Positions 26,544 to 29,090 of a stretch of DNA of 40,754 bases are shown in pieces. The DNA lies in contig QKBZ01000014.1 of assembly GCA_003245895.1 (NCBI GenBank), positions 1 to 40,754 on the forward strand, read 5' to 3'. The notes under the pieces were generated by a model. It was given only the letters and a program-made list of their open reading frames with translations. It had not been told where the DNA came from and made no database searches. This stretch comes from Beggiatoa sp. GTDB taxonomy: Bacteria; Pseudomonadota; Gammaproteobacteria; Beggiatoales; Beggiatoaceae. The translations under genes were made by a program, and so were the position numbers. Each line of letters starts with the position of its first letter. The stretch's first letter is position 1.

Positions 26544-27881
26544 ATGAAGACAAGCATACAGTTTAAGCCTGAATTTTGTCGAAATGAACGAGAAGTTGAG
26601 AGTAAGTTTATCGTTAGCTATTTATTGCCCGCCTTGGGCTATCAAATTAATATGTGGCAGCAGGAGAAAAAAGCGAACCGTTTTCGCTTAGATTTTTTTG
26701 CCTATCCTGATCAAGTCACGGATGATTTACCCAAAATTGTCATTGAAGCAAAGCATCCTAATAGGCCGCTAAGTGATGCCTATGATCAGCTTAAAGGCTA
26801 TATGGTAACGCTTAAAATTACTTATGGCTTGTTAACCAATGGGCGAGAGATTAGGATTTATAAGCAACATATTAATCATTCCATAAAACTCGTTTTCCAA
26901 TGTTTTTTGCGCAATATTGCTGAGCATATAGAGCACATTAAAACATTAATTGGACGTGATGTTCTTTTATCAAAAAAACTGACGATAATTAACAAAGAGA
27001 TAATTAATCAAGAGGCTAAGATGAAAATTATTGCTATTTATCATAATAAAGGTGGTGTAGGAAAAACAACGACGGTGGTTAATTTAGCGGCTGCGTTGGC
27101 ATTTAGAGGTAAGCGTATTTTAGTGATTGATTTAGATAGTCAAGCAAATACGACTTTTGCTACCGGTTTAATTAATTTTGGTGATGAAGAAAAAGACAAT
27201 TTACGAGACAACTATGTAATTCATTTGTTGCGCTCTCAAGATAGCTATGCAATAGCGGATGTTGCAAGAGATTCACGTTATAGCAGTCATCCAGTAAAGG
27301 TGATCCCTGCCCATATTCGCTTAATGTATCATGAAGATGAATTAAACCGTCTTGATTATACCCGCCATATTTTATGGAAAAAACTGAATGCGGTTAAAGA
27401 TCAATATGATGTTGTCTTGATTGATACGCCCCCATCATTAAATTTATATGCGCGTATTGGCTTAAATACGGCTGAATATTTATTAATTCCCTCTGATTTA
27501 AAACCCTTCGCAAACGAAGGCTTGGAAAATGTTAAAAGCTTTATCAACGAAATTAATGGATTTAAGGAAATGGTTAGTTTGCCAAAACTGCAAGTGTTAG
27601 GCATTTTACCAAATAAGGTTTCAACTAACCCTCGTTTTTTAAATAAAACCTTTAAAGAACGTGTGCAAAATATAGAGCAGCGTTATCAAATTCCTGTGCT
27701 GAGTGAATGCACGATTTATGATCGGGATGATTTGGCTAAATGCTTAGACCAATCGGTTGAGTTAGGTGAATTAGATGTTGCTGATCCTCGTTCAATTTTT
27801 GATTTTAAGGCGAACTCTAAATCTGCTGAGGAATTTTTTAAATTAGCGGATGTTGTAATGTCTAAAGTAGGTTTGGTGTAA
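26544..27881 (+). CDS. PD-(D/E)XK nuclease domain fused to ParA ATPase
   Basis: 445 residues. Residues 1-~120 match the type I restriction enzyme HsdR N-terminal nuclease domain: Glu17/Glu19 in EREVES, GYQINMWQQEKK, Asp50 in FRLDFFAY, the EAK motif (Glu68-Lys70) in IVIEAKHP, the RecB/HsdR-type QxxxY motif (Gln82-Tyr86) and GLLTNGREIRIYKQ. All metal-binding positions appear intact. After a helical linker, Met160 begins a complete ParA/MinD ATPase: deviant Walker A NKGGVGKTTT (169-178), VIDLDSQANTT and VVLIDTPPSLN. An internal ATG at 27021 (Met160) has a good SD (AAGAGG, 5-base spacing), whereas the ATG at 26544 has none obvious, so a shorter ParA-only product is possible. The stop overlaps the next gene by one base (TAATG). 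Confidence 0.85.
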   Translation: MKTSIQFKPEFCRNEREVESKFIVSYLLPALGYQINMWQQEKKANRFRLDFFAYPDQVTDDLPKIVIEAKHPNRPLSDAYDQLKGYMVTLKITYGLLTNGREIRIYKQHINHSIKLVFQCFLRNIAEHIEHIKTLIGRDVLLSKKLTIINKEIINQEAKMKIIAIYHNKGGVGKTTTVVNLAAALAFRGKRILVIDLDSQANTTFATGLINFGDEEKDNLRDNYVIHLLRSQDSYAIADVARDSRYSSHPVKVIPAHIRLMYHEDELNRLDYTRHILWKKLNAVKDQYDVVLIDTPPSLNLYARIGLNTAEYLLIPSDLKPFANEGLENVKSFINEINGFKEMVSLPKLQVLGILPNKVSTNPRFLNKTFKERVQNIEQRYQIPVLSECTIYDRDDLAKCLDQSVELGELDVADPRSIFDFKANSKSAEEFFKLADVVMSKVGLV

Positions 27882-28993
27882 TGAGCAAAATAGCCCCTTT
27901 AATTGTGTTGGTGAAAAGCATTCATCATCAACGTACACAAGCTACCTATTCAGAAGCAGAATTAGTGCGAGCAGCCGAGGCTATTTTAGAAGGTGGTGGC
28001 GTGTTAAAACCACTGGTATTAAAGCGGCGCGGCTTTGAAGAATATGATTTAGTCGATGGTGAGTTTGAATACCTTGCAGCACTAAAAGCCCAAATGCTAG
28101 ACCCTATTAAGGGAGAAACCATAGATGCTTATGTGATGGATGACAGTAATCAAGAGATTGTCATGCAGCAATTGCAAATTTTTAGACAGCGTGAAGTTAC
28201 AGAACCGGCAACCGCTGAACTTCCTGCTGGGCTAAGTGCGGCACAACTTTTATCGTGTTTACAGCCGCTGTTTAGTCAATTAGAAAACCGTTTAGATCAG
28301 CGTTTTCACATGATTGAGCAACAGTTGCAACACTTAACAACGGGGGCAGTTTCGAGTAGTGATACCACGCCTGCAACTGTAATAGAACCGGTTGTTAAAC
28401 AAGCAGAGCCTGAAGTCATCCCTGAACCAGTAGCTACACAAGTAACTGAATCACCTGCAATACCGGAAACAAATGACACACCAGCAGTGGCCTTGCCTAC
28501 ATTACCTGAATGGATCACATGGCTTAACCAAGTGTCTGCCCAACAATTAGCCGCTACCGTTAAGCAAATGAAACTGGGCTTAAGCAGTAAAGTGCAAGCT
28601 AATTTAATGCAAGCAAGACCTTTTCAGTCAGCGCAGGCTGTTAAACAAGTAAAAGGTATTGGAGATAAAAGTTTTGCGGCTTTACAACAGGTTGTTCTAC
28701 AGACAACTAGCTCAGATATTGCAGCTACTGAAGCAGAAATTGTTAAACCAGTTTCAGCAGCGAAAACAGATAGCGTTGCGACATCAAGCGCAGTGATTGC
28801 AGACCCGTGGTTACAAACCTTGAATACGGAAGATGCAAAAGACTTATTGTTTAAACTCAGCCGCGCAAAATTGAGTAGTGAAGCCATTAATTTAATTCTA
28901 AATAACCGCCCTTTTGAGTCTTTAGAAGTCTTGCAAAAACTTAAAGGTGTTGGCAAAGCAAAAGTAACGCTTTTGAAAAAGCTTTTGGGTTAG
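27881..28993 (+). CDS. ParB-like protein with two helix-hairpin-helix modules
   Basis: 370 residues. Residues ~5-95 resemble the ParB/Spo0J N-terminal domain (LVKSIHHQR...EAELVRAAEAILEGGGVLKPLVLKRRG, then YDLVDGEFEYLAALKA, the counterpart of the GERRxRA box with the arginines replaced). The ParB DNA-binding HTH is missing. A predicted coiled coil (~128-150, LENRLDQRFHMIEQQLQHL) and a Pro/Glu/Thr-rich linker follow. Two tandem ~58-residue modules (~209-268 and ~309-369) share the pattern WL...LSS...RPFxS...V/L-K-G-I/V-G-K, each ending in a HhH hairpin (VKGIGDKSF, LKGVGKAKV), probably for non-specific DNA binding. It is translationally coupled to the nuclease-ParA gene and should be its partner. 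Confidence 0.8.
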   Translation: MSKIAPLIVLVKSIHHQRTQATYSEAELVRAAEAILEGGGVLKPLVLKRRGFEEYDLVDGEFEYLAALKAQMLDPIKGETIDAYVMDDSNQEIVMQQLQIFRQREVTEPATAELPAGLSAAQLLSCLQPLFSQLENRLDQRFHMIEQQLQHLTTGAVSSSDTTPATVIEPVVKQAEPEVIPEPVATQVTESPAIPETNDTPAVALPTLPEWITWLNQVSAQQLAATVKQMKLGLSSKVQANLMQARPFQSAQAVKQVKGIGDKSFAALQQVVLQTTSSDIAATEAEIVKPVSAAKTDSVATSSAVIADPWLQTLNTEDAKDLLFKLSRAKLSSEAINLILNNRPFESLEVLQKLKGVGKAKVTLLKKLLG

Positions 28994-29007: not shown

Positions 29008-29090
29008 TAGGATGGGCTGACGCAGGAAGCCCATCAATCGTGCCGACCAAATCGCGGTAAACGACGGGCTTCCTGCGTCAGCCCATCCTA
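29008..29090. repeat. Perfect 25-bp inverted repeat, family C
   Basis: The left arm 29008-29032 (begins TAGGATGGGCTGACG) and the right arm 29066-29090 (ends CGTCAGCCCATCCTA) are exact reverse complements around a 33-bp centre. It is a MITE- or REP-like element directly after the ParB-like gene and might also act as a terminator. Confidence 0.9.

Follow-up and report, generated by a model that had tools for sequence, protein, structure and literature searches.

A two-gene nuclease-ParA and ParB-like machine common to giant sulfur bacteria and many cyanobacteria, probably policing or managing DNA in cells with many genome copies

A nuclease-ParA fusion and its ParB-like partner

The window, i.e. 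the whole stretch of 40,754 nucleotides analysed here, is an entire contig from a 4.9-Mb Beggiatoa sp. genome. Two genes follow each other on its forward strand with a one-base overlap: ORF1 (26544..27881, 445 aa), coding for a PD-(D/E)XK nuclease-ParA ATPase fusion, and ORF2 (27881..28993, 370 aa), coding for a partner composed of a ParB fold, a coiled coil and HhH modules. These coordinates, the overlap and the domain make-up, all given by an earlier reading made from the letters only (hereafter the sequence-only reading), agree with the ORF list and Pfam. The pair had also been placed in an AT-rich island, next to a perfect inverted repeat. The AT-richness is real, the GC content of the pair being in the lowest 4% among equal windows, but it is confined mainly to ORF1 (35% GC) and to the gap upstream of it (33%), vs. 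44%. As for the inverted repeat (29008-29090, 25-bp arms, arm TAGGATGGGCTGACGCAGGAAGCCC), it does exist, but not as a part of the pair: it is a dispersed palindromic repeat, with 174 half-sites genome-wide, often in facing pairs ca. 60 bp apart. Because of this dispersal, its candidacy as a parS site or as the end of an element was rejected.

Structure prediction of both proteins, a check proposed by the sequence-only reading, gave for ORF1 (AF2, mean pLDDT 89.4) two ordered domains, nuclease and ParA, separated by a linker of poor confidence. The first is an HsdR_N_2-type nuclease domain (residues 7-141; 26562..26966, + strand), to which Pfam HSDR_N_2 matches over residues 22-109 with 36.6 bits (cut-off 25) and whose mean column conservation reaches 66% in the family alignment. 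Its predicted catalytic residues, D50 and E68-A69-K70 (26691..26753, + strand), are conserved in 45/46 and 46/46 aligned homologues, respectively, the D and ExK being kept also in the divergent type II genes described below, and Y86 is equally invariant (46/46). The PD-(D/E)XK site, first described as intact, is to this extent conserved, but QxxxY is no fixed motif, Q82 being replaced by K or R in half of the aligned relatives. A PDB profile search with the domain returned chance-level matches only and no PDB nuclease; its membership of the PD-(D/E)XK group is based on the D...ExK active site, conserved in type I and type II genes. In ten close pairs, the dN/dS of the nuclease domain ranges from 0.09 to 0.30, near or somewhat above that of ParA. 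Together with the motif conservation, these values indicate a domain under purifying selection, and not a relic.

The second domain is a Soj-type ParA ATPase (27021..27863, + strand), complete as had been proposed: AAA_31/ParA matches residues 160-338 with 175 bits, and Foldseek retrieves Soj/ParA with an E-value of about 1e-18. With its Walker A KGGVGKTT (27048-27071, + strand), ORF1 has the ParA ATPase with deviant Walker A expected of ParABS systems. The first residue of the domain is mostly Met, the Val or Leu of the remaining homologues being encoded by GTG or TTG, and the preceding linker is poorly conserved; a start codon is found at this position in 81/81 distinct genes (73 ATG, 4 GTG and 4 TTG). 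In the window, the internal ATG (27021-27023, M160, + strand) is preceded by a predicted ribosome-binding site, AGAGG (27011-27015), the stretch 27012-27023 reading GAGG-CTAAG-ATG. A Shine-Dalgarno, scored as a stretch of at least four bases at the proper distance from the codon, precedes 32/81 (40%) of these internal starts vs. 14/504 (3%) of other internal Met codons (Fisher p = 4e-20) and 3.7% of nearby codons. Relatedness inflates this p-value, but the same pattern is met with in several phyla. In four of the five type II genes, too, an ATG with a Shine-Dalgarno-like stretch lies at the ParA boundary. This conserved start codon and its Shine-Dalgarno predict that the ORF1 mRNA also yields a second product, ParA without nuclease, for which the short form of McrB, likewise initiated internally, provides a known precedent. 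The internal start at residue 160 is a new observation, absent from the sequence-only reading.

Concerning ORF2, residues 1-103 (27881..28189, + strand) have a ParB-CTPase-like fold. ParB_N scores 20.7 bits in the window's protein, below the Pfam cut-off of 26.3; the assignment is secured by the agreement between the ParB_N matches of 37/39 relatives, the family profile run against the PDB (Spo0J and Noc at about 1e-6, the Spo0J match being at 2e-6) and Foldseek, where the AF2 model (mean pLDDT 80.7, N-domain mostly >90) matches Noc/ParB CTPase domains (E-value 4.5e-5). The P motif of this domain is G60-x-x-E63, not GxxR. Among the 74 loci, GxxR was found in none and G-x-x-[E/Q]-[Y/F] in 69; ParB-fold proteins need the arginine of GxxR to bind nucleotides (PMC12704722). 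The LG[RK]GL ParA-binding motif is likewise present in 0/74 loci, and neither the Pfam scan nor the AF2 model revealed an HTH in ORF2. The earlier description of a ParB-like N-terminus without arginine box or HTH is borne out, the loss of the arginine box being a trait of the family.

The rest of ORF2 consists of a long helix, probably a coiled coil (residues 120-155; 28238..28345, AF2), and of two HhH modules, at residues 210-272 (28508..28696; HHH_3 29.3 bits, AF2 helices with pLDDT >90) and 309-369 (28805..28987; AF2, 11% occupancy in the family alignment), all on the + strand. The duplication of the HhH holds for the window's ORF2, but is peculiar to it and to a few relatives, the C-terminus of the others carrying one HhH, or Rho_N, SAP or HeH. 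As all of these are small nucleic-acid-binding folds, general nucleic-acid binding seems to be kept by ORF2, in a form that varies. The window's genome also has an orphan protein (L077:7848-9218), with a zinc-finger-like N-terminus and two tandem ParB-like domains resembling ORF2.

Distribution, pairing and history

A search for the pair in other genomes, which the sequence-only reading had called for, found it in Beggiatoaceae, cyanobacteria, Thiorhodospira and Desulfobacterota. Within the window's family, ORF1 is present in 25/43 genomes, mostly with 48-63% identity and directly followed by ORF2; two further genomes have ORF2 at a contig edge, which brings the carriers to 27/43. Named ones include Thiomargarita, Parabeggiatoa and Marithrix. 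Outside the family, the fusion occurs in Thiorhodospira, Desulfonema, Desulfobacter and many cyanobacteria, among which Microcoleus, Planktothrix, Trichodesmium, Okeania, Lyngbya, Hormoscilla and Crocosphaera. A close match was found in 1/297 Desulfobacterota genomes.

The nuclease domain was found in 64 of the 386 sampled cyanobacteria, with one strong copy each: 48 copies are close (type I) and 16 divergent (type II), and the two types never occur together in this sample. Five type II genes, with 27-29% identity to the window, retain D, ExK, Y and GLLTNG, and each is a ParA fusion; in the three type II loci inspected manually, a ParB-like gene, or one of similar build, comes next. Type II nuclease-ParA loci (L267-L270 and L273) come from other cyanobacteria, including some with genomes of 2.5-2.6 Mb. 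A second ParB_N + Rho_N protein, resembling the type II partner, lies just downstream of a Microcoleus pair (L160:12789-13886). Cell size is no strict correlate of the pair, since its cyanobacterial hosts include unicellular, small-genome species. A comparable spread was reported for Bbp, the actin-like protein of large bacteria (PMC10580974).

In 72 of the 74 loci with both genes, these overlap, most often by 1 or 4 bases, or are separated by no more than 11 bp, and the three fusions without ORF2 in the pairing set stop at contig edges. The pair is single copy in almost every genome, and its presence is uniform within the genera of the window's family (one discordant pair in 22; permutation p = 0.0008). 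As judged from these comparisons, the pair is real and old, and the pairing obligate. In the ORF1 tree, most sulfur-bacteria sequences form a single clade with Thiorhodospira (support 100/100), whose copy adjoins that of the window and points to at least one cross-family transfer. Horizontal transfer of ORF1 is also shown by a few divergent sulfur-bacteria copies, which fall among cyanobacterial or desulfobacterial ones.

The pair lies in megabase contigs and complete chromosomes. No relative with the nuclease-ParA architecture was found by tblastn in plasmids and phages or by a scan of IMG/VR; plasmids yielded neither an ORF2 nor a record with the fusion, and the only phage matches were to HsdR_N domains of halovirus type IIG enzymes. 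A plasmid or phage origin was rejected because the architecture is absent from these collections.

Neighbouring genes and the missing ParB

In 36 cyanobacterial loci, mostly of Microcoleaceae (Oscillatoriales), the pair is immediately preceded by the same fatty-acid desaturase gene, which shows the Oscillatoriales locus to be fixed. In the window's family, the neighbours differ by genus, and no conserved operon partner is common across the family. AAA_21 ATPases account for 9 of the 125 flanking genes in this family vs. about 0.8 expected, as derived from 3-93 copies per genome; the p-value of this enrichment is 2e-7, or 0.009 if the associations are counted as four, and independent associations may number only three, since the five AbiLi neighbours are related and may stem from one event. 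A large expansion of AAA_21 (OLD/AbiEii-like) genes was observed in some giant sulfur bacteria, namely in genomes G017, G040, G036 and G001 (40-93 per genome), with 3 in G029.

Since PADLOC neighbour scans over-call AAA ATPases, only specific high-scoring pairs were used. The nine flanking AAA_21 ATPases are of several kinds. An AbiLi-like gene (AbiLi 253 bits) lies upstream of the pair in five loci; of these, G034 and G008 have RloB/AbiLii and ORF1 joined into one reading frame, and in G018 the RloB part contains a stop. No AbiLi-like gene was found in the cyanobacterial loci searched. The AbiLi to AbiLii/RloB-nuclease-ParA arrangement spans L096:6960-10212, L073:6246-9544 and L068:6818-10206, RloB being stop-interrupted in the latter. 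In a plasmid abortive-infection system, AbiLii acts as the toxic TOPRIM effector (PMC10440598). HEC-01A/B is located upstream of the pair in G039, and PDC-M07A/B downstream in G001 and, by homology, in G040, with an ATPase fragment in G036. No defence gene is directly beside the window's own copy. The scoring of neighbourhoods, another check proposed at the outset, gave a divided picture: AbiL, HEC-01 and PDC-M07 stand beside the pair in part of the family, but a desaturase does so in the Oscillatoriales.

When PF02195 was run over the 43 family genomes, a single canonical-looking ParB was detected (G014, 65 bits), vs. 114-137 bits in related families. Canonical ParB is absent from the other 42, including the complete genomes G029 and G010, and also from Microcoleus G314; chromosome partition in these 42 family genomes must therefore run without ParABS. 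That the pair would be a strict replacement of ParB was rejected, because 15-16 of the 16 family genomes without the pair lack ParB too and because some hosts, Desulfonema and Thiorhodospira, carry both.

Candidate roles of the pair

Compared with ParABS (Soj-Spo0J/ParB), the pair shares a Soj-type ParA with KGGVGKTT and a partner directly downstream, of ParB-CTPase-like fold, but its ParA carries a fused nuclease and an internal start for a nuclease-free ParA, and its partner has no parS-reading HTH, no GxxR and no LG[RK]GL and ends in HhH or Rho_N/SAP. McdAB and other ParA/MinD cargo-positioning pairs similarly associate a ParA ATPase with an adjacent dedicated adaptor, the nucleoid being the expected track; here, however, there is no nearby cargo operon, the adaptor is a ParB fold with a DNA-binding module and the ATPase bears a nuclease. 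The N-terminal nuclease of type I restriction HsdR is of the same PD-(D/E)XK subtype as that of ORF1 (HSDR_N_2, with D, ExK and Y), but ORF1 has no SF2 helicase/translocase, ParA taking the motor's place, and neither HsdM nor HsdS is among the most frequent neighbour families. AbiL (AbiLi AAA + AbiLii RloB/TOPRIM), HEC-01 and PDC-M07 adjoin the pair in several relatives, up to the AbiLii/RloB-ORF1 fusions, but the pair exists without them, as beside the window's copy. In the ParB-CTPase-fold fusions surveyed in PMC12704722, other domains are likewise attached to an N-terminal ParB fold; the survey text names no fusion with HhH or Rho_N, and gives only the DUF3850 fusion as consistently beside parA. 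PADLOC 2023 gave no specific model match, ORF1 matching only the generic ParA part of PDC-M28B (38 bits) and ORF2 nothing. The pair belongs to neither ParABS, type I restriction nor any PADLOC system, and should work like a ParA/ParB pair. The statement that no described system has this architecture agrees with the open-access papers searched, none of which describes it; this two-gene nuclease-ParA/ParB-like machine is previously unnoticed.

The sequence-only reading saw in it a device distinct from ordinary parS-based partition, and the conserved nuclease, the lack of a parS-reading domain and that of a ParA-binding motif all speak for this view, as do the absence of any plasmid link and of consistent origin neighbours. 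Of the two findings named beforehand as counter-evidence, a pair always located at plasmid or chromosome origins with parS sites and a nuclease motif lost in homologues, neither was observed. Our preferred explanation, held tentatively and at a little under an even chance, is that of a partition-type ATPase machine turned into an ATP-controlled DNA-surveillance nuclease. Several observations are consistent with it: catalytic residues near-invariant over three phyla and kept in type II, purifying selection on the nuclease, the obligate pairing, the conserved internal start, an ORF2 retaining the ParB fold with a swappable DNA-binding C-terminus and no GxxR, and the AAA_21 excess with its AbiL, HEC-01 and PDC-M07 neighbours. 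The main counter-argument is the fixed synteny behind the desaturase gene; in addition, a genus-uniform, mostly single-copy presence resembles that of a housekeeping gene and not of mobile defence, the window's copy has no adjoining defence gene and the independent defence associations are few. Anti-invader defence, as first suggested, is to that extent only partly upheld: the immune-type neighbours and the AbiLii/RloB fusion support it, but, given its synteny and inheritance, the pair is unlike a typical mobile defence system.

The architecture, the pairing, the motif conservation and the start codon are read directly from the genomes, and from them we infer nuclease activity, a contact between ORF2 and ParA, and a trigger. 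The full-length nuclease-ParA and ORF2 are encoded by one operon, which also has conserved signals for a nuclease-free ParA made from the internal start. ParA-ATP dimers would bind DNA non-specifically, as Soj does, while ORF2 would anchor to DNA by its HhH (or Rho_N/SAP) module, dimerise by its coiled coil, and contact ParA through its ParB-like domain, triggering the ATP cycle. Use of the nuclease would be limited by this cycle, by ORF2 and by the amount of long ParA relative to the short form; with only part of the ParA pool bearing a nuclease, cutting would occur only where ORF2 gathers enough nuclease-bearing molecules. As ORF2 lacks an HTH to read a site, the machine would be triggered not by a sequence but by the state of the DNA, such as ends, branches, or its being foreign or unpackaged. 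The likeliest role would be to protect the genomes of large or polyploid bacteria from invading or aberrant DNA, with abortive-infection proteins wired directly to the pair in some relatives.

The main rival to surveillance is the management of genome copies, i.e. a non-canonical positioning, spacing or segregation of genome copies or chromosome-bound cargo in polyploid bacteria without ParABS, where the nuclease would process concatemers or tangled copies and ORF2 would be a general nucleoid-bound ParA activator. The Beggiatoa and Thiomargarita family, to which the window belongs, is known for large polyploid cells, and the ParA domain is closest to chromosomal Soj; ParB is missing from nearly all family genomes and from Microcoleus G314 but present in related families, and vertical, genus-uniform inheritance with fixed Oscillatoriales synteny would suit such a function. 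Yet ORF2 has neither HTH nor LG[RK]GL, 16/43 family genomes do without the pair and, with one exception, without ParB, and Desulfonema and Thiorhodospira have both; an invariant nuclease is unexpected in a partition protein, and the abortive-infection neighbours stay unexplained. The invariant active site and these immune-type neighbours are the reasons for favouring surveillance, and genome-copy management, a serious contender, is on balance unlikely.

A nuclease for DNA repair, recombination or genome turnover (trimming extra copies or taken-up DNA), with ParA as an ATP-driven DNA-loading platform, would fit the conserved nuclease, the ComEA-like HhH of ORF2, the core-like inheritance and an internal start allowing an adjustable nuclease dose; it is decidedly less probable, no conserved repair, recombination or competence neighbours being seen among the flanking genes and the AbiL/HEC-01/PDC-M07 association being left unaccounted for. 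That the nuclease fold would bind DNA without cutting, which would make the pair an ordinary ParA positioning system with one more domain for DNA binding, is suggested by the lack of a PDB nuclease match and the varying Q of QxxxY, but is improbable, because at least one catalytic residue should then have been lost, and D50, E68, K70 and Y86 are near-invariant in type I and conserved in type II. Maintenance of a mobile element (plasmid, integrative element or prophage), put forward by the sequence-only reading, could draw on the low GC, on neighbours differing in nearly every genus of the window's family and on the Thiorhodospira transfer, but is contradicted by the absence from plasmid and viral collections, the chromosomal locations and the fixed cyanobacterial synteny, and is very improbable, being already refuted for the most part.

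The surveillance nuclease may take a more specific form, proposed with still greater reserve: a ParA gradient, or the cooperative assembly of the two products with and without nuclease, would set the place of cutting, with ORF2 reading the DNA state, and the pair would belong to the core equipment of polyploid cyanobacteria and giant sulfur bacteria, guarding their genomes and offering abortive-infection effectors a place to dock.

The known task of ParA ATPases is the positioning of DNA and protein cargo, and the window's family includes the largest known bacteria. An old, conserved ParA with its own nuclease, and seemingly a nuclease-free form as well, would unite DNA positioning and cleavage; to judge from the AbiLii fusion, immune effectors may be connected to this nuclease-ParA machine. 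As its hosts include culturable cyanobacteria, the way polyploid cells handle genome copies or foreign DNA becomes directly testable. Giant sulfur bacteria and many cyanobacteria share here a common two-gene machine, which probably polices or manages DNA in cells with many genome copies.
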